A DNA stretch of 64,000 nucleotides. Origin: Prosthecobacter sp. (lineage in GTDB: Bacteria > Verrucomicrobiota > Verrucomicrobiia > Verrucomicrobiales > Verrucomicrobiaceae). Positions 1,076 through 59,083 of the stretch are shown here, piece after piece. The stretch's first letter is position 1. Every line of letters begins with the position of its first letter. A program made the translations under genes and the position numbers. The stretch is from contig JABARQ010000020.1 in assembly GCA_019186985.1 (NCBI GenBank), positions 62,001 to 126,000 of the forward strand, given 5' to 3'. The notes beneath the pieces were generated by a model. That model was not told where the DNA came from and ran no database searches. It worked only from the letters and a program-made list of their open reading frames with translations.

Positions 1076-1235
1076 GAGCCGGAAAAATACGTTACTACAA
1101 ATAAACAGCCTCCAGCGTCCAGCACGGAGTTTTTGAGTTTGCACCCGCTTCCGCCTTCTCAGGGGCGTTTGCAGGGGCTCAGAACGGCAAAAAAAGACTT
1201 CTAAGACGCCCGGAAGTCATCATATCTACGCATCC

Positions 1236-1514
1236 ATGAACGAATCGGACCTCCAGGGAATGCTCCAACGGGCCACCGCCTCACCGGCGGACAGCCTGCC
1301 CGGCTCCCTAAGGGAGGAAATCATGCGCCGGGTTCGGACGGATGACGGACGGGCCAGGCGCTGGCGATCCTTCACCCTCTGGCTTCTGGCTCTTGGCATG
1401 GTTACTGGCCTGGGCACGGCCTTGATCATCGGCTGGTCCATGGCTTCTCGTGACACGGCCCACTCCCAGCCGCCCCGGCTGGAGCTGATCCAGGGAGGGG
1501 GTGTTCTGAAATGA
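1236..1514 (+). CDS. CnrY-like membrane anti-sigma factor (putative)
   Basis: A 92-residue protein with a charged cytoplasmic N-terminal half (residues 1-44), one transmembrane helix (about 45-67) and a short outer tail. In size, topology and position it matches CnrY of Cupriavidus metallidurans, the membrane anti-sigma factor that holds the ECF factor CnrH until the periplasmic sensor CnrX binds nickel or cobalt. Sequence similarity to CnrY is too low to see by eye, so this call rests on architecture and on the two genes that follow. Its stop overlaps the next start by 4 bp (ATGA at 1511), implying translational coupling. Confidence 0.55.
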   Translation: MNESDLQGMLQRATASPADSLPGSLREEIMRRVRTDDGRARRWRSFTLWLLALGMVTGLGTALIIGWSMASRDTAHSQPPRLELIQGGGVLK

Positions 1515-1972
1515 GTCTGCGTGCCCGCTGGCTGCTGCTTTCCGTGGTTTGTTCGATGCTGCTGGCTGGCGGCACGGCCTGGTGGGCCACGGACCTCTAC
1601 CTGCATCGGCACGGGGAGGGTCATGCTCAGGAGCATCTGGCCCCGGATTTCCACGCCTGGATGCATGAGCATCTGGACATCACCCCTGAACAACACGCCG
1701 CGCTGGAATCCGTGGAGGCGGAGTTTGAGCAGTCCCGAACCCGTCTGAAGGCTGAAATCCGCGCCGCTGGCCTGGAACTGGCGGAGGTGATCCGCAAGGC
1801 GGAGGCAGGCGACCCTCGCATCAAAGACGCCCTCCAGCGTCTGAACCGCAACCAGGCTGAACTACAACATCGGACTCTTGACCATTTCTTTGCCATGAAA
1901 CGCTTCCTGCGCCCGGCGCAGGCGGCCAAGCTGCTCGACTGGACCCATGACAGCCTTACCCGCGAGCCTTGA
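1511..1972 (+). CDS. CnrX-like periplasmic heavy-metal sensor
   Basis: A 153-residue protein with an N-terminal membrane anchor (about residues 7-24) and a helical periplasmic domain of the Metal_resist/CnrX type. All five ligands I recall for Ni/Co in CnrX (H42, H46, E63, H119, M123) have counterparts with identical spacing: H48 and H52 in FHAWMHEH, E69 in SVEAEFE, H125 and M129 in DHFFAMKRF. The conserved turn LDITPEQ follows the first His pair. The start has the only clear purine-rich ribosome-binding stretch seen nearby (AGGGAGGGGG), inside the preceding gene. It overlaps the sigma-factor gene by 26 bp. The role is inferred to be metal sensing that releases the sigma factor. Confidence 0.8.
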   Translation: MSLRARWLLLSVVCSMLLAGGTAWWATDLYLHRHGEGHAQEHLAPDFHAWMHEHLDITPEQHAALESVEAEFEQSRTRLKAEIRAAGLELAEVIRKAEAGDPRIKDALQRLNRNQAELQHRTLDHFFAMKRFLRPAQAAKLLDWTHDSLTREP

Positions 1973-2552
1973 CTGCCTGATCGGCCCCACCCCTACGGAG
2001 GAAAGCCTGGAGAAGGTGAAAATCCGTGCCGCCCAGCAGGGCGACATGACGGCCTTTGAATGGATCGTCCGCCAGCATGAGGAGCGCCTTTTCACCTTCT
2101 GCTGCCGGTGGCTGCGCTGCAACCAGGATGCCCGTGAAGTCTGCCAGGACGCCTTTGTACGTGCCTGGCAGGCGCTTCCCGACTTCGAAGGCCGGTGCAG
2201 CATCTCCACCTGGCTTTATCAGATCGCCCTCAACCTCTGCCGTGACCGCGCCAAAACCCGCTCCACCAGGCAGCAAGCCTGCACGGTCGCCCTGGAGGAT
2301 GTCGAAGGTCAGCCGGCCTGTCCCCTCCCCGCCCCGGACCGCAGCGCGGAGTGGCGCGGCGAGATGCAGAAGCTGGAACGTGGCCTGGCCGCGCTTCCTG
2401 AAAAGCTTCGCGCCGCCCTCATGCTGACCAGCCAGGAGGGACTCAGCCAGGAGGAGTGCGCCTTGATCCTCAACTGCTCCGTCCGCAGCGTCGAGGGCCG
2501 CGTCTACCGGGCCCGGCAGATGCTGCTGGAATGGTGGAACCGCCAGGGTTGA
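1947..2552 (+). CDS. ECF-type RNA polymerase sigma factor (CnrH-like)
   Basis: A 201-residue sigma-70 family ECF factor. Region 2 spans roughly residues 39-105, with the core-binding and -10-reading motif DAREVCQDAFVRAWQ and the STWLYQIALNLCRD segment. Region 4 spans about 143-195, with a helix-turn-helix (LSQEECALILNCSVRSVEGRVYRAR) that reads the -35 element. It is the third gene of a tightly overlapping operon with a CnrY-sized membrane protein and a CnrX-like sensor, the same order as cnrYXH. No efflux genes (cnrCBA-like) follow: the next gene is convergent, 4 bp away. Its targets must therefore lie elsewhere. Confidence 0.9.
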   Translation: MTALPASLDCLIGPTPTEESLEKVKIRAAQQGDMTAFEWIVRQHEERLFTFCCRWLRCNQDAREVCQDAFVRAWQALPDFEGRCSISTWLYQIALNLCRDRAKTRSTRQQACTVALEDVEGQPACPLPAPDRSAEWRGEMQKLERGLAALPEKLRAALMLTSQEGLSQEECALILNCSVRSVEGRVYRARQMLLEWWNRQG

Positions 2553-3831: not shown

Positions 3832-5463
3832 CTACCGGGCGTTCAGCCCGCCTTCAAAACGACGCCAGTAGATCACCGCCACCGGCAGCACTCCGGCGCA
3901 GTGCCGCGCGGCGTCCAGCACGGACGCCCACCCTCCTGTCTCAATGGCGGTGATGACCAGGCTGCCGGCGGTGACCAGGGCCACTCCGCACAGGAAGATC
4001 GCGGCAGGCGCCACCGTCTGACGTGGTCCGGGCATCATGGCCTCCACCATGTCCCAGAAACGCCAGGCCAGCAGGGCCAGGATGACCATCGGCATGTAGC
4101 TTTCCAGACCGCCCAGCTCCGGCGCATCATAGTCGTAGAGGGCGTGAACCACGATCAACGCGCCGAGCGTGGTCAGAAACTGCGGCGCCTGGGCAAAGCG
4201 GGTGCGCAGCATGTCATACAACGCCTGGGTGGAAAGTCCGGTCAGCGCAACATGCATGAAGTTTGCCGACAGAAACCGGCCCAGCACCACGGCGCCGCCC
4301 ATGTCCTGGTAATAATCGATGTTCTCCTCCATGGCGAAGCCCAGGCCAACAAAGGCGCCCGTCATCAGCGCCATGCCCGGCATGCGCCGCCTCAGCAGCC
4401 AGGGCATGAACATGGCCGCGAGCGCCAGCTTGCAGACCTCCTCCCGAAATCCCACCCCGACGATGAGGTGAACCAGGTCCAGAGGAAACGGCACGCCCTC
4501 CTCATCAATCCCCATGTGATCCTGCTGGAAGGCGATCAGGCTCACCGTCGGCCAGATGCTGGCGACACCGGCCAGCAGAGGTGCCAGGGGCCAGATCCAG
4601 CGCCAGCCCCGGCCCGGCAGATGAACGACCAGCAGCAAATACCACAGTCCTGCGGCGAGCCCCGTCAGACAAACCGCCGCCAGAGGCAGATGTGCAAGCC
4701 TGTGCTGCAAAAGCCCATGCCATTGCATTCCGATGTCACCCAGCACCACGCCCGCCTCATGTTTCAGCAGACCTGGCATGGCTTCCAGCCAGCCTTTTTC
4801 CCGGAACACACTCAGCTTCGAGGCATCCTCCAGATGCAGGGCCAGGCGGAAGGCCGTCTCACGCAGCTGTCCGGCTTCAGGAAAACGCTGTGCCTCCTTC
4901 ATCATGGCCGCCAGGGCCTCCTCCTCCTGGCCCAGTCGCAGCAGCATGCTGGCATGCAGTTCACAGGCATGAGCCGGGCAATCCTCCTTCGCCGCCGCAG
5001 CACTCAGCCGCGCAGAAGCTTCACGGCCTGCCGGATTATCTTCGGCCAGGCAGGCGGCGAGATAATCCTCCGCCAGGCCACGCGACACCGGATCCACCAA
5101 ATGTTTGTCCAGGAGCTCCCGGACCTCGTAGGCAAGGATCGAGCCCGATTTCACATAGGCATCCCAGGTCACCTCCGGCATGTCCAGGCTCTCCGCAAGC
5201 AGAGCCAGGCTTGGGGTCAGTTTGCGCAGCCAGTGGGTGAGCCTTCTCGGATCCGGACGGGAATCGTTCGCAAGCTGCCTCCACTCGTGGCGGATCGACT
5301 GTTCGACCGGGTCCATCACTGGCCCGCCTTCACGGCCCGGGCTCGTCTGCACGATGCCCCATGCCAGCAAAAAGGCCCCGGCGACGATGCTCAGGGCCGT
5401 CTTGCGAAGGATGTCCTTCCGTCGAGACCAGTAATGCAGCCTTGAACGCCATCCCCTGTTCAT
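3832..5463 (-). CDS. PrsW-family intramembrane protease with N-terminal extension
   Basis: A 543-residue protein. The C-terminal half carries the PrsW/CAAX-like protease motifs in membrane helices: REEVCK (E341, E342), EEN (about 379-381), H404 in the MHVALTG helix and H440 in HALYDYD. The first about 240 residues contain one transmembrane helix (near 20-40) and alpha-helical, TPR-like sequence outside the membrane. B. subtilis PrsW is far shorter and cleaves the anti-sigma factor RsiW, so the extension may select substrate. I chose ATG 5463 because it overlaps the stop of the preceding gene as ATGA; a longer frame to 5496 exists but would run inside that gene. An anti-sigma substrate is an inference. 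Confidence 0.85.
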   Translation of the reverse strand: MNRGWRSRLHYWSRRKDILRKTALSIVAGAFLLAWGIVQTSPGREGGPVMDPVEQSIRHEWRQLANDSRPDPRRLTHWLRKLTPSLALLAESLDMPEVTWDAYVKSGSILAYEVRELLDKHLVDPVSRGLAEDYLAACLAEDNPAGREASARLSAAAAKEDCPAHACELHASMLLRLGQEEEALAAMMKEAQRFPEAGQLRETAFRLALHLEDASKLSVFREKGWLEAMPGLLKHEAGVVLGDIGMQWHGLLQHRLAHLPLAAVCLTGLAAGLWYLLLVVHLPGRGWRWIWPLAPLLAGVASIWPTVSLIAFQQDHMGIDEEGVPFPLDLVHLIVGVGFREEVCKLALAAMFMPWLLRRRMPGMALMTGAFVGLGFAMEENIDYYQDMGGAVVLGRFLSANFMHVALTGLSTQALYDMLRTRFAQAPQFLTTLGALIVVHALYDYDAPELGGLESYMPMVILALLAWRFWDMVEAMMPGPRQTVAPAAIFLCGVALVTAGSLVITAIETGGWASVLDAARHCAGVLPVAVIYWRRFEGGLNAR

Positions 5464-5798
5464 GACCGGGGCGGCGGCGTTTCCTGATTTCTCCACCAGT
5501 CCTGGTCACGCTCCCAGGGCGCATGCGGATCTTCCTCCGCCTTCGCCTTCAAGGCTCCGCTGAAATCCGGATCGTCCTCCAGCTCCATGATGAGCTGAAT
5601 GTGAGGCTCAGGCCGGGTCGTCCGCCGCCAGATCAACCAGGCCCAGCAGGCGAAAAAACCAAGCATGAACAGCAGCAGCCCCAGATTGATCAGGACGAAG
5701 AGGTCCATCGCCACCACATGCCCGTGGCCAGCCCCGGCCCCTTGCCCTGCGGCAGCGGGCGGATTCAGGTGGACGGGAAAGGCCAGGATGCTCGGCAT
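5460..5798 (-). CDS. single-pass membrane protein coupled to PrsW-like protease
   Basis: A 112-residue protein with one hydrophobic helix (about residues 33-57, LFVLINLGLLLFMLGFFACW), a Gly/Ala/His-containing N-terminal segment and an acidic, Trp-containing C-terminal tail. The next gene begins within its stop codon (ATGA, 4-bp overlap), so the two are translated together. That makes it a candidate partner or substrate of the PrsW-type protease, but no family is recognised. Confidence 0.7.
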   Translation of the reverse strand: MPSILAFPVHLNPPAAAGQGAGAGHGHVVAMDLFVLINLGLLLFMLGFFACWAWLIWRRTTRPEPHIQLIMELEDDPDFSGALKAKAEEDPHAPWERDQDWWRNQETPPPRS

Positions 5799-36658: not shown

Positions 36659-38104
36659 TCAGCTGATTTCCGGCACGACGTAAGGCTCGCGATACCTGTC
36701 CTTCAGCATCGCGTTGGCGGAGTCGTTGTCGGTAAAGCGCTCCGTGGCTCCATTCATCCTGAGCACAGGCCCCAGGGTCAGCTTGTCCTTGCTGACATCG
36801 ACCTCGTTCCTGGCCAGGTGCTCCCTCATGCGCTCGAAGGTCTCGGCGGCAAAGCCGTCGGCCTTGATCTGCTCCAGGATCATCTCAGGCGACTCCTTTT
36901 GACCGAGGCGATGACTGATGTTGCCCGTGTGGCAGAGGGCGCTGGAAAGGTGCCCCTCCAGAATGTCCGCATGAAGGTCATCCACACGGCGGCTCCTGCA
37001 GGCATTGATGAAGTTCTTGAAGTGGTCCTCGCTGCCTTCAAACTTTCTGACCTCCTTGCCCGCCTTGTCATAGGCAGTGGCGCTGGAGTAGCTCGAAACC
37101 ACGACGGTGCCGCCCTCGCATTCCACGATGACGCCGACGCCGGCTCCCTTGTATTTGTCCATGTCCTTGCCGTCCTTGCTCTCAGGAAGGCCGCGCACCT
37201 CAAAGATCAGCGGCGCCTTTTCATAGCCGTGGTAGATGACCTGGGTGTTCGCCGTCTCGCCGTCGTCTTCATAGCCCAGACGTCCGCCGACGCTCCACAC
37301 GCTCGGCGCCAGCTCCATCTCCCCGAGAAACCAGCGGGCGATGTCCATCTGATGAATGCCCTGGTTGCCAAGGTCGCCGTTCCCATAGGCCCAGGTCCAG
37401 TGCCAGTCATAGTGCAGCCTCTTGCGTGTCAGCGCGCCCTTCGGCCCTGGCCCGCACCAGAGATCATACTCGATTGTGTCCGGGATCTTCTGCTCGCCCT
37501 CGGCCTTGCCGATGCTGTTGCGGCGCTTGTAGCACAGCCCGCGGGCAAGCTGGATCTTGCCCAGGTTGCCCTGCCTGACCCACTCCACCGCAGCGCCGAT
37601 GCCCTTGCGGCTTGAGCGGGCCTGCGTCCCGGTCTGCACCATCCTGCCATATTTGCGCGCCGCATTCACCATCTGCCGCCCTTCCCACACACAGTGGGAG
37701 ACGGGCTTCTCCACATACACATCCTTGCCGGCCTGCATGGCCCAGATCGATGCCAGCGAGTGCCAGTGGTTCGGCGTGGCGATGCTCACGGCGTCAATGT
37801 CCTTGTTCTCAAACAGCCGCCGCATGTCGGCATACGCGAGCACCTTCTGCCCCTCCTTGTCGAAGGCCTGAACATGCTTCCCGAGCACGCCGCTGTCCAC
37901 ATCACACAGGGCAGCCACCTTCACGCCTTCGTTCTTCAACCCCTTGTAACCGCTGATGTGGGCGCTGCCACGCCCGCCAAACCCGATGACCGCCATGTTG
38001 ATCGTGTCACCCGGACTCTTTTGGGCCCAGGAGGTTTTGGCGATGTAAAAAACGCCGGTGGAAGCGGCGGCGGACTGGGTGAGAAAACGGCGGCGGCTGG
38101 TCAT
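36659..38104 (-). CDS. Tat-exported Gfo/Idh/MocA-family oxidoreductase
   Basis: A 481-residue protein with a Tat signal (TSRRRFLTQSAAAS) and a Rossmann domain beginning INMAVIGFGGRGSAHISGY. The catalytic-site motif of the family is EKPVSHCVWEGRQMV (EKP Lys), and the C-terminal domain contains WHWTWAYGNGDLGNQGIHQMDIARWFL (catalytic His region). Exported members with these N termini are very abundant in Planctomycetes and Verrucomicrobia and act on sugars or glycosides, often with tightly bound NAD; the substrate is unknown. The start at 38104 gives the Tat motif; 38170 does not. Confidence 0.92.
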   Translation of the reverse strand: MTSRRRFLTQSAAASTGVFYIAKTSWAQKSPGDTINMAVIGFGGRGSAHISGYKGLKNEGVKVAALCDVDSGVLGKHVQAFDKEGQKVLAYADMRRLFENKDIDAVSIATPNHWHSLASIWAMQAGKDVYVEKPVSHCVWEGRQMVNAARKYGRMVQTGTQARSSRKGIGAAVEWVRQGNLGKIQLARGLCYKRRNSIGKAEGEQKIPDTIEYDLWCGPGPKGALTRKRLHYDWHWTWAYGNGDLGNQGIHQMDIARWFLGEMELAPSVWSVGGRLGYEDDGETANTQVIYHGYEKAPLIFEVRGLPESKDGKDMDKYKGAGVGVIVECEGGTVVVSSYSSATAYDKAGKEVRKFEGSEDHFKNFINACRSRRVDDLHADILEGHLSSALCHTGNISHRLGQKESPEMILEQIKADGFAAETFERMREHLARNEVDVSKDKLTLGPVLRMNGATERFTDNDSANAMLKDRYREPYVVPEIS

Positions 38105-38169
38105 GACACATCCTATTACGGCACCAGCAACCCCGGCTTTGCGAACCCAGTCACGCTGAAGGCTGTGCA

Positions 38170-39426
38170 TCAGTCCTCCGCCCGGGTCTCCAGCCGGTAA
38201 AGCGCACCATCCTGGGAAAGCACCACGGGCTCGCCATCGGCGTCGGCCACGACCAGGGTTGGATTGAACTTGTGCTCAGCCGGACCACGATGCAGCACCA
38301 GACGTCGCAGGACATGCTGCTCGGCGTCCATCTCCAGGGCCCAGACATGTCCATAGCCCCAGTCGGCAAAAAGATAGCATCCCTCAAGGCCGGCCAGCCT
38401 CCCGCCTCGGTAAATCACGCCCCCGACGATGCAGATGCCCTCCCCACGAAGCCTGGAATAGGCATGCACCGGCTCCACAAATGTCGTGCCGGAAAGCAGC
38501 GGCCTGGAATGAAAGGCCGTCTTCAATCGTCCCTCCAGATGACTCCATCCATAGTTGGCCCCCGGCTTGATCAAGTTGACCTCCTCCCACAAATCCTGCC
38601 CCACATCCGCACACCAAAGCTTGCCGGTCTTGGAATCAAAGCTCAGCCCCCAGGGATTGCGCAGCCCCAGGGCATAGATTTCCTTCCGGGTCGTCTGCTC
38701 ACCCGCAAACGGATTGTCCGGCGGAATGCCGTACGGCAGCGCCCCGTCACGCCTGTTGACGTCGATCCGCAGGATCTTGCCATGCAGCACCCAGGGATTC
38801 GCCGCCAGCGAATAAGGATCGTCACGCAGGCCGCCATCCCCCATCGCCAGATACAGCATGCCATCCGGTCCAAAGGCAAGGTGCCCGCCCCAGTGATCCG
38901 CAAGCGGCTGCTGCACCTCCAGAAGAATGCGCTCGCTCTCAGGAACCGCCTTGGGGGACGCCCCCTCCGTGGCACGCATTTCACTGATCACCGTCCGCCT
39001 CGGCTCGTTCTGCGTGTAGCTCAGGTAGAACAGCCGGTTCCTGGTAAACTCGGGGTGAAAGGCAATCCCATGCACCCCCTCTTCAAAAAGCATGATGCCC
39101 TGCATCCGTTCCCGCAGGTCCAGAAACGGCCTCCAGCTTCCCTCACCCAGGTTCACCGCACAAAACTCACCACGCTGCATCGCCACCACCTGCTCCCCCT
39201 CGCCGCCGGGCACCACCGTCAGCATGACGGGCGAATCAAACTCCCGGCCCATCGACAGTCGAACCAGCACAATCCCTGGGAAGCTTTCCTCCGGCACATC
39301 CGGCAGCGGCAGCTCCGGCGCCGCCACCCGGGTCACGTCCTCTTCAGGTGCGGCTCCGCCTACCCAGGTGGGCAGCAGGACCGATGTCAGAAAAATCAAA
39401 CCGTGCAGACGAACAAAGAGTGTCAT
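38170..39426 (-). CDS. secreted PQQ-dependent sugar dehydrogenase-like protein (GSDH)
   Basis: A 418-residue protein with a signal peptide (MTLFVRLHGLIFLTSVLLP) and the glucose/sorbosone dehydrogenase propeller: GVHGIAFHPEF, NRLFYLSYTQ, HWGGHLAFGPDGMLYLAMGDGG, YALGLRNPWGLSFD, LWCADVGQDLWEEVNLI and GANYGWSHLEG. The Arg-Asn-Pro-Trp and Asp-Val-Gly-Gln motifs are the usual PQQ and Ca surroundings. It lies 65 bp upstream of the Gfo/Idh/MocA gene on the same strand; together they suggest periplasmic sugar oxidation. Confidence 0.9.
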   Translation of the reverse strand: MTLFVRLHGLIFLTSVLLPTWVGGAAPEEDVTRVAAPELPLPDVPEESFPGIVLVRLSMGREFDSPVMLTVVPGGEGEQVVAMQRGEFCAVNLGEGSWRPFLDLRERMQGIMLFEEGVHGIAFHPEFTRNRLFYLSYTQNEPRRTVISEMRATEGASPKAVPESERILLEVQQPLADHWGGHLAFGPDGMLYLAMGDGGLRDDPYSLAANPWVLHGKILRIDVNRRDGALPYGIPPDNPFAGEQTTRKEIYALGLRNPWGLSFDSKTGKLWCADVGQDLWEEVNLIKPGANYGWSHLEGRLKTAFHSRPLLSGTTFVEPVHAYSRLRGEGICIVGGVIYRGGRLAGLEGCYLFADWGYGHVWALEMDAEQHVLRRLVLHRGPAEHKFNPTLVVADADGEPVVLSQDGALYRLETRAED

Positions 39427-39569
39427 GGAAAGATAGGTTCGCGTCACAATCCGCAAACTTCATGCCACTCGGCAACCTCAAACTTTATTGTTCCGAATGT
39501 GGATTAATGGCTCGAAAAGCCTTGGCTTCATCCACGACTGGCACCGCTTCTGCTGGTACAAACAGCCTG

Positions 39570-40862
39570 ATGCAGACCGTTCAGATCGCCAGCCTTGGCC
39601 AGGGCTCCTTTGCCTCGCCCATTCATCAAATCGGTGCCGTCGAGGCCCCTTTCAAATCAGACAGCGAAGACCGCATCCTCTATGCCAACTCGCTGAAGGG
39701 CCTGCACTCCCCCGATGAAGCCATGACCTTCGAGGAGGCCGGTCCGCGGGAGAACCTGTTCTTCGACCCCGCTAAAACCACGGTCGGCATCGTCACCTGC
39801 GGCGGCCTCTGCCCCGGTCTCAACGACATCATCCGCGGCATCGTCAACCAATGCCACCGCCAGTACGGCATCACCCGCGTCTACGGTTTTCGTTATGGCT
39901 ACGAGGGCCTGGTTCAGCGCTACGGACACACCCCCTTGATCCTCCGGCCCGAATCCGTCTCCCAGATTCACACCTTCGGCGGCACCATCCTGGGCAGTTC
40001 CCGGGGCCAGCAGCCCGTCGCTGAAATGGTGGACACGCTTGAGGACATGAACATCGACATCCTCTTCGTCATCGGTGGCGACGGCACCCTGCGCGGTGCC
40101 TCGGCCCTGGTGGAGGAAATCTCCAGGCGTGGCCTGAAGAAGGCCGTCGTCGGCATTCCCAAGACGATCGACAACGACATCATGTACCTCGACAAATGCT
40201 TCGGTTTTGAAACCGCCTTCGCCGAGGCGGTGAACGCCGTCAAATGCGCCTACACCGAGGCATGCGGAGCCGTCAACGGCGTAGGGTTGCTCAAGCTCAT
40301 GGGCAGGGACAGCGGCTTCATCGCCTGCTTCGCCGCCCTGGCCGGAAGCAACGTCGACTATGTGCTCATCCCCGAGGTTCCCTTCACCCTGGAAGGCACC
40401 GGCGGCCTGCTCGAATCCCTGCGCTACCGCCTAGCCAAGCGCGGTCAGGCCGTGATCGTGGTCGCCGAAGGAGCCGGCCAGGACCTTCTGCAAACCGACG
40501 GTGGCACCGATGCCAGCGGCAACAAACGCTACGGAGACATCGGCCTCTTCCTCAAGGACCAGATCAACGCCTTCTTCAAGTCCCGGCGCATGGAGGTGAA
40601 CCTGAAATACATCGATCCCAGCTACATCGTCCGCAGCGTGCCCGCCAACGCCCAGGATAACGTGTATTGCTCACGCCTTGCCCAGGCCGCCGTGCACGCC
40701 GCGATGGCGGGCAAGACGGACATGCTCGTGGGCCGCTGGCACGGCGCCTTCATTCATCTGCCGCTTCAGATGGTGACCTGCGGCAGGCGCAAGGTCGATC
40801 CCAACAGCGAACTCTGGCATGCCGTGCTGGAAAGCACCGGACAACCCGCCCGCTGGGGTTGA
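39570..40862 (+). CDS. pfkA: 6-phosphofructokinase (long, TP0108-like type)
   Basis: A 430-residue PfkA-superfamily enzyme that phosphorylates fructose 6-phosphate. Motifs: VGIVTCGGLCPGLNDIIRG, GFRYGYEGLV, FVIGGDGTLRGA (the Gly after Asp is the residue that favours ATP over pyrophosphate), GIPKTIDNDI with the catalytic Asp, and LMGRDSGFIA. The Lys in PKTIDND is usual for the long types. The frame is open to 39348, but third-position GC drops before 39570, and the region upstream overlaps the divergent gene, so I use ATG 39570; ATG 39507 is an alternative (451 residues). Confidence 0.9.
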   Translation: MQTVQIASLGQGSFASPIHQIGAVEAPFKSDSEDRILYANSLKGLHSPDEAMTFEEAGPRENLFFDPAKTTVGIVTCGGLCPGLNDIIRGIVNQCHRQYGITRVYGFRYGYEGLVQRYGHTPLILRPESVSQIHTFGGTILGSSRGQQPVAEMVDTLEDMNIDILFVIGGDGTLRGASALVEEISRRGLKKAVVGIPKTIDNDIMYLDKCFGFETAFAEAVNAVKCAYTEACGAVNGVGLLKLMGRDSGFIACFAALAGSNVDYVLIPEVPFTLEGTGGLLESLRYRLAKRGQAVIVVAEGAGQDLLQTDGGTDASGNKRYGDIGLFLKDQINAFFKSRRMEVNLKYIDPSYIVRSVPANAQDNVYCSRLAQAAVHAAMAGKTDMLVGRWHGAFIHLPLQMVTCGRRKVDPNSELWHAVLESTGQPARWG

Positions 40863-40870
40863 ACACCGGG

Positions 40871-41251
40871 TCAGGGCTTCACCACCGGCTTGCCGGCATC
40901 GACCCAGCCTCCGTAGCCGCCGTCGAGGTGGTAGACCTCCTTGAATCCAAGCTTTTCAAACAGGGGCAGCGACCGGGTGCTGCGCCCCCCGGCCTGGCAG
41001 TGCACCAGCACAGGCTTCGATTTGTCGAGCTTCCCCAGCCGTGCCTCAAAGTCAGGCTCCAGGACGTCAAGGTTCTGCGCCTCCTTGAGGTGCCCTTCGC
41101 TGAATTCCTCACGGGTGCGTACATCGACAATGACCACCTTGCCCTCGGCAATCAGCTTGGCCGCGCCGTCAGCATCCACATGCTTGGTCTTGTCGGCGGC
41201 CATGGCTGCGGAGGTGATCAGGAGCAGGAGGGATGTCAGGATGGTTTTCAT
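40871..41251 (-). CDS. secreted single-domain rhodanese
   Basis: A 126-residue protein with a signal peptide (MKTILTSLLLLITSAAMA) and one rhodanese domain: VVIVDVRTREEFSEGHL and the active-site loop VHCQAGGRS, where Cys carries the persulfide, then LDGGYGGWVDAG. It would act outside the cytoplasm in sulfur or cyanide handling. It is convergent with pfkA, 9 bp away. Confidence 0.92.
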   Translation of the reverse strand: MKTILTSLLLLITSAAMAADKTKHVDADGAAKLIAEGKVVIVDVRTREEFSEGHLKEAQNLDVLEPDFEARLGKLDKSKPVLVHCQAGGRSTRSLPLFEKLGFKEVYHLDGGYGGWVDAGKPVVKP

Positions 41252-41279
41252 GATTGAAGCGTGGGGAGGATACGAAAGC

Positions 41280-59007: not shown

Positions 59008-59083
59008 GGCTCGGTAGCTCAGTCGGTAGAGCAGGGGATTGAAAATCCCCGTGTCGGCGGTTCGATTCCGTCCCGAGCCACCA
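59008..59083 (+). tRNA. tRNA-Phe (GAA), with encoded CCA
   Basis: A full cloverleaf: acceptor GGCTCGG pairs with CCGAGCC, a D-arm with GCTC...GAGC, an anticodon arm GGGGA-TTGAAAA-TCCCC with anticodon GAA at 59041-59043, and T-arm GGCGG-TTCGATT-CCGTC (one end mismatch of G-T type). The CCA end (59081-59083) is encoded. A gene-poor, lower-GC region follows directly, the usual pattern for a tRNA used as an integration site. Confidence 0.96.

Follow-up and report, generated by a model that had tools for sequence, protein, structure and literature searches.

CnrYXH is the textbook periplasmic sensor of nickel and cobalt and is known for turning on efflux. Three genes resembling it lie near the start of the window, the 64,000-nucleotide stretch of DNA analysed here (G000:C16:62001-126000, G000 being the window's own genome), and they raise the question of what such a switch controls where no efflux gene follows it. 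The genome is Prosthecobacter-like, of the Verrucomicrobiaceae, with Prosthecobacter, Brevifollis, and Verrucomicrobiaceae genomes as its closest named relatives. The first-pass annotation was therefore right to place a metal-sensing operon of this kind outside the Proteobacteria. It was also right that efflux genes are missing after H, where the next gene in the window is a convergent PQQ/BamB-type propeller. The three overlapping plus-strand genes have the order and approximate product sizes that the annotation gave them, 92, 153, and 201 aa, compared with 95, 148, and 191 aa for CnrY, CnrX, and CnrH on pMOL28 of C. metallidurans. The features discussed below, in window coordinates, are as follows:

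1236-1514, plus strand: Y, 92 aa, putative single-TM anti-sigma factor (ORF list)
1511-1972, plus strand: X, 153 aa, CnrX-type membrane-anchored periplasmic metal sensor (ORF, PF13801, predicted fold)
1947-2552, plus strand: H, 201 aa, ECF sigma factor with regions 2 and 4 (ORF, Pfam)
1076-1235, plus strand: region upstream of Y, without TTTTGTGGG-N16-CGTC (PWM)

X matches the Metal_resist family (PF13801, E 3.1e-13), and a phmmer search of the PDB returned CnrX (1.4e-11) and NccX (7.7e-11) with all other entries far behind. NccX of C. metallidurans 31A, the second best match, has all ligands aligned with those of X; it belongs to an efflux system. The proposal that X keeps the five CnrX ligands at the same spacing was borne out by a gap-free alignment, in which H48, H52, E69, H125, and M129 of X correspond to H42, H46, E63, H119, and M123 of CnrX (positions counted on the deposited sequence, L092). 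These five residues are invariant across 31 aligned relatives and stand at the exact spacing in all extracted sensors (40 distinct sequences). They are also present in 18 of 20 more distant Verrucomicrobiota sensors, where L251, with its X missed by the pattern, and L252, matched in part only, were scored as not shown. A 14-row alignment that includes CnrX and two alphaproteobacterial homologues has eight invariant columns: H48, H52, E69, A107, H125, M129, L133, and P135. An AF2 model of the X monomer (pLDDT 85.1, pTM 0.62) gave only CnrX and NccX at ranks 1-15 in Foldseek, with a best E of 8.8e-4 and a TM score by target of 0.71. A single N-terminal membrane anchor is predicted, with hydropathy of 1.70 at residue 8 versus 1.72 at residue 10 in CnrX. 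Sequence, ligands, and the predicted fold, which in CnrX is a periplasmic helical bundle, all mark X as a genuine sensor of the CnrX type.

The ligands had also been read as a Ni/Co site, which goes further than they allow, because CnrX-like sensors in copper clusters keep the same five. Two of the 14 alignment rows come from copper-resistance regions with cueR and a P-type ATPase, one of them also with a multicopper oxidase. CnrYXH-like trios with all five ligands are located at L091:6699-8004 and L093:6729-8007, in copper-resistance clusters of Caulobacter and Polymorphobacter plasmids.

The other two proteins resemble their Cnr counterparts less closely. Y has a predicted cytosolic N-terminus, a transmembrane segment at about residues 48-66, and a short periplasmic tail; its hydropathy peaks at residue 48, compared with residue 46 in CnrY, and the gene is kept upstream of X in relatives. 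Y had no match in Pfam or the PDB. A profile of Y relatives gave no alignment to CnrY with hhalign, and phmmer found no similarity, CnrY being short and used as a single sequence; by these tests, the two sequences show no detectable relation. We infer that Y is the anti-sigma factor. H matches Sigma70_r2 (3.7e-16) and Sigma70_r4_2 (6.2e-13). Its PDB matches were SigH of P. aeruginosa (1.4e-27), RpoE (2.5e-23), and CnrH (4cxf, 1.1e-20), so that AlgU/SigH and RpoE score above CnrH. The description of the operon as CnrYXH-like thus holds in full for X, extends to size and topology for Y, and is weaker for H, an ECF sigma factor with better matches than CnrH. A search of 56 genomes recovered X at E<=1e-21 in 31, G000 counted, and the operon recurs, so it is not a chance arrangement. 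With matches to the sensor alignment at E<=1e-6 in 44 of 387 Verrucomicrobiota genomes, the Y-X-H system is not exceptional within the phylum.

A candidate target appears beside H in relatives of the window. In 14 of 32 sensor loci examined, H is closely followed on its own strand by a gene for a TonB-dependent receptor (TBDR); in two more, this gene lies 5.5-5.9 kb downstream of H. Dab-type genes follow H in G001/L065, G002/L072, G012/L064, G013/L069, and G029/L068, with a TBDR roughly 8-12 kb downstream on the same contig. Adjacency of H and TBDR is also seen in other families (G043, G049, and G050; L234, L235, L236, and L238). The G000 orthologue is on another contig than the operon, at C23:81092-83194; its stretch 81176-83194 is 54% identical to the L052 receptor. 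A TBDR was present in 29 of 31 genomes with X versus 6 of 25 without it (Fisher 1e-7, relatedness not corrected). The receptors have Plug and/or barrel domains in Pfam and no STN signalling domain.

Several receptor loci have further features. At L188:5026-5910, in another family, the TBDR gene overlaps a gene for a ZnuA-type metal-binding protein (PF01297, 8.7e-41), which suggests a periplasmic partner of the receptor. L237 (G355:C4) carries a complete X-H followed by a short, apparently broken N-terminal remnant of a TBDR behind GTGGG-N16-CGTT; a second copy in this genome, L236, has X-H-TBDR intact.

The H-TBDR intergenic stretches of relatives contain TTTTGTGGG-N16-CGTC, an arrangement that is a typical ECF promoter layout. 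Among 30 receptor loci examined, the motif was present at 24 of the 25 from genomes with X, the single miss being G050 of another family, and at none of the five from genus genomes that lack X. G008 is not represented among the 30 loci but has an exact site at its receptor, bringing the genus total to 25 of 25 genomes with sensor and TBDR. The chance of the motif under dinucleotide shuffling was 0.044 per segment. Kinship among the receptors does not explain the pattern, because the X-less ones are 69-74% identical to the G000 receptor and many motif-bearing ones only 51-55%. The X-less genus genomes amount to fewer than five independent events, since they are few, at least partly related, and in some cases share neighbouring genes.

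In G000, the exact motif occurs twice, at C23:81088-81116 before the receptor and at C7:160535. We rejected the latter as a target, as it lies within a 407-codon open frame whose product resembles an ABC permease by eye. With up to one mismatch there are five sites versus 16 for a reversed control; there is no enrichment, and it is position alone, not abundance, that supports the G000 site. The expectation that the sigma factor controls something elsewhere was supported, in the form of a candidate promoter located on a different contig. Beyond the genus, five of nine TBDR loci or remnants have a related site, in many cases with CGTT at -10; these score 10-14 by PWM, against a background maximum of 5.2 and 21.5-36 for TBDR sites in the genus. 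Additional exact matches in other genomes, among those examined, were mostly within open frames or before no shared gene, with the exception of L153 and L154, described below.

The same motif is not a feature of the operon's own upstream region. Across 38 Y-upstream regions, the best PWM score was 11.9 and the window's was -5.4, all below the genus TBDR minimum of 21.5, and alignment and PWM revealed no promoter motif common to them. Positions 1076-1235 lack TTTTGTGGG-N16-CGTC, so there is no sign of H driving its own operon through it, and we rejected autoregulation by this route. What the sequences establish is the operon, the five ligands and predicted fold of X, and the promoter motif with its tie to the sensor; that H, and not another ECF sigma factor, reads the TBDR motif is what we infer from them.

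A pattern search of 32 genomes revealed a possible second target. Sites L153 and L154 precede the same gene; its product, roughly 240 aa long, is exported, and the sequence behind the predicted signal opens with HPLPDVPVR. The site is present at 16 of 20 close orthologues, with near variants by eye at the other four, and at none of 10 distant orthologues searched with the same pattern. Ni/Co permeases of the HupE/UreJ type carry a related domain at their N-terminus. In G043, the HPLPDVPVR domain and a HupE_UreJ_2 permease (PF13795, 1.9e-45) form one protein, and ATGGG-N16-CGTT is found upstream (PWM 21.9). HupE/UreJ proteins are assumed nickel or cobalt transporters in PMC7689651. G031 has the second-target promoter and X was not found in that genome, which is 78% complete; this counts against the tie to X. 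G000 has no close orthologue of the protein. It does have an HPLPDVPVR/HupE N-terminal domain at G000:C24:22565-23095 (L182), which in a 566-codon frame is continuous with a C-terminus that by eye looks like a PhoD-type phosphodiesterase; the promoter motif is absent there.

Evidence on the metal comes from the receptor. Of 52 matching records, we retrieved 17 proteobacterial plasmid loci that carry a receptor of this family, L096 and L260 being near copies among them. Genes for NikR, HoxN/NixA, or [NiFe]-hydrogenase were within the fetched stretch at nine of these (at L265 by tblastn), a cobalamin riboswitch was directly upstream of the receptor at four, and corrin-synthesis genes were nearby at one. 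The remaining three had no Ni/Co-linked element within the fetched stretch, misses being less certain in five of the 17 records because these have no gene table. A genome-context rule given in PMC7689651 assigns nickel transporters by proximity to NikR or hydrogenase and cobalt transporters by a B12 riboswitch. Since 13 of the 17 loci fit that rule, the receptor family would handle nickel and/or cobalt, and by this context the TBDR family is probably a Ni/Co importer. The receptor context is a line of evidence independent of the sensor, and it agrees with a sensor of CnrX type; the metal bound by X is most likely Ni(II) or Co(II). No cobalamin riboswitch was found at the receptors of G000, L052, or the five X-less genomes, so this form of control was rejected for them. 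Urease was likewise dismissed as a nickel consumer in G000, where none was found, and no Ni or Co enzyme emerged as the user of the imported metal, which counts against the uptake reading.

Set beside CnrYXH (pMOL28, cnrYXHCBAT), the window's operon shares gene order, overlaps, protein sizes, sensor fold, the five ligands, an ECF sigma factor, and the topology of Y. The two differ in what follows: cnrC begins 72 bp after cnrH, whereas relatives of the window have a TBDR in that place, and the target is RND efflux in one case and apparently a TonB-dependent receptor in the other. The promoter TTTTGTGGG-N16-CGTC also sets the Y-X-H system apart. Moreover, cnrY has a CnrH-dependent promoter according to PMC9045368, unlike the Y-X-H operon, which is without the target motif. 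The NikR- and cobalamin-riboswitch-linked TonB receptors of Proteobacteria belong to the same receptor family (about 36-46% identity) and are tied to a cytoplasmic nickel sensor or a riboswitch, whereas here the tie is to a periplasmic sensor and an ECF sigma factor.

Both wirings appear to occur within the phylum. Among 20 Verrucomicrobiota sensor-sigma loci, four have a receptor beside H, one has a receptor remnant, and in eight the fetched stretch includes an RND gene resembling cnrA; the PF00873 protein of L242, for example, is 42% identical to CnrA. A tree of H, in which the phylum rows begin at the tblastn match and have cut N-termini, places the RND-linked and other distant rows on one side (99/99). 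The receptor-linked rows are on the opposite side, together with the long-branched proteobacterial ones; CnrH sits on a long branch. The RND-linked rows thus make up no single clade, and where CnrH belongs is uncertain. Two more Metal_resist genes of G000, at C11:27392-27700 (L088) and C27:43755-44096 (L090), are each near an ECF sigma gene. The C11 gene has RND genes on both sides (C11:9661-19905 and 37962-41273), which raises the possibility that G000 has an efflux-type pair alongside its uptake-type one.

These observations bear on whether the window's operon is a classic CnrYXH resistance regulator, in which metal-bound X frees H to activate an RND pump encoded elsewhere. The five kept ligands, the 17 PF00873 matches in G000, and the CnrA-like genes at phylum loci are in its favour. 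The first-pass annotation suggested looking for the sigma factor's motif near RND efflux genes; the target that emerged is a TBDR instead, with none of the five G000 motif sites (<=1 mismatch) at an RND gene. With the motif tied to a TBDR in 25 of 25 genus genomes and the H tree separating TBDR-linked from RND-linked rows, we regard a resistance regulator as quite unlikely. It is about equally improbable that another ECF sigma factor reads the receptor motif and that Y-X-H is merely a chromosomal neighbour. That would suit the location of operon and receptor on different G000 contigs and the missing motif upstream of Y, but motif and X are absent together from the five X-less genus genomes, despite their closely related receptors, and H-TBDR adjacency recurs across families.

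A sensor for copper or zinc, with a receptor importing that metal or a chelate of it, is unlikely as well. Copper-cluster homologues share the ligands, there are crystal structures of CnrX with Cu and with Zn (PDB entry titles), and in G043 a gene for a ZnuA-type binding protein comes next after the receptor gene. Against this are the NikR, HoxN, hydrogenase, or cobalamin riboswitch links at 13 of 17 plasmid receptor loci, and Zn-bound CnrX is described as non-functional in PMC7689651. Surface signalling of the FecI/FecR type, in which the receptor itself would sense its substrate and signal through Y to H, is very improbable. FecI/FecR/FecA and Y-X-H are alike in that an ECF sigma factor drives, or here would drive, a TonB receptor gene, and one cluster brings together such a sigma factor, a TonB-dependent receptor, and a candidate anti-sigma factor in the membrane. 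We rejected this scheme because the receptors are without STN, Y is without a FecR-type Pfam match, and a separate metal-binding sensor, X, stands between Y and H.

In our judgement, Y-X-H is likely to be a trans-envelope switch of the CnrYXH kind whose output has moved from efflux to uptake. Anchored in the inner membrane, X would use three His, one Glu, and one Met to bind a transition metal on the periplasmic side, and X and Y together would hold H at the membrane. Once free, H would bind RNA polymerase and initiate at promoters of the form TTTTGTGGG-N16-CGTC, chiefly that of the Ni/Co-linked TBDR, in G000 the receptor on C23 with its site at 81088-81116. In many relatives the HupE/UreJ-N-terminal-like exported protein would be a second target. 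The signal would pass from periplasmic metal to X, Y, H, and finally the TBDR promoter.

The sign of the switch is a closer call. CnrX binds Co(II) or Ni(II) and recruits M123, whereupon the CnrXY complex releases CnrH, according to PMC7689651 and PMC4598750. By analogy, we lean slightly toward the CnrX sign, in which metal-bound X would release the sigma factor and uptake would be substrate-induced, because the signal-transmitting Met of CnrX is kept as M129, a weak argument. Metal-induced uptake of a toxic metal is unusual, and the logic of uptake argues for the opposite sign. An empty sensor that releases the sigma factor would amount to normal homeostasis, a reading of nearly equal likelihood. 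The broader proposal, that a CnrX-type sensor serves as a lineage-wide uptake regulator that releases its sigma factor when empty and so sets the level of an outer-membrane Ni/Co importer, is one we hold tentatively, as possible rather than probable. If true, a periplasmic sensor would do from outside the cytoplasm what NikR or a cobalamin riboswitch does inside it. Sensor, output, and perhaps sign would have been exchanged in evolution, with related pairs in the phylum keeping the efflux wiring.

The CnrX-type sensor is the known part of this system; its proposed control of import together with an ECF sigma factor, and the apparent switch of output away from efflux, seem to be new. In the open-licence literature, we found no description of a CnrX-type sensor and ECF sigma factor controlling uptake, or of CnrX in Verrucomicrobia. 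The loci are a natural collection in which to study how a module that senses metal shifts from detoxification into uptake, and whether the sign changes with it. They further supply a defined ECF promoter, along with what is likely an outer-membrane receptor for nickel or cobalt, in a phylum whose metal regulation is little known.

Other genes recur around the operon. In many Prosthecobacter-type genomes, inorganic-carbon modules, consisting of DabA with two NADH-dehydrogenase-like subunits or of a SulP-carbonic anhydrase fusion, are found with a histidine kinase beside YXH or between YXH and the TBDR, often convergent with H; examples, all on the minus strand, are L064:9045-14753, L053:9052-11373, and L063:9083-12694. 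Three minus-strand genes after H in some relatives (975, 449, and 462 aa) were considered as RND efflux and rejected, as Pfam identifies DabA and two NADH:quinone-oxidoreductase/Mrp-type subunits; the SulP-carbonic anhydrase fusion at other loci is likewise unrelated to efflux. Because no strong motif site was found at these genes in the scanned loci, we consider them insertions or neighbours and not targets. Within the window, the sole Rfam match is a tRNA gene at 59008-59080 (plus strand). A PrsW-type intramembrane metalloprotease is encoded close to Y-X-H, at 3832-5496 on the minus strand; in Bacillus, PrsW cleaves an anti-sigma factor.
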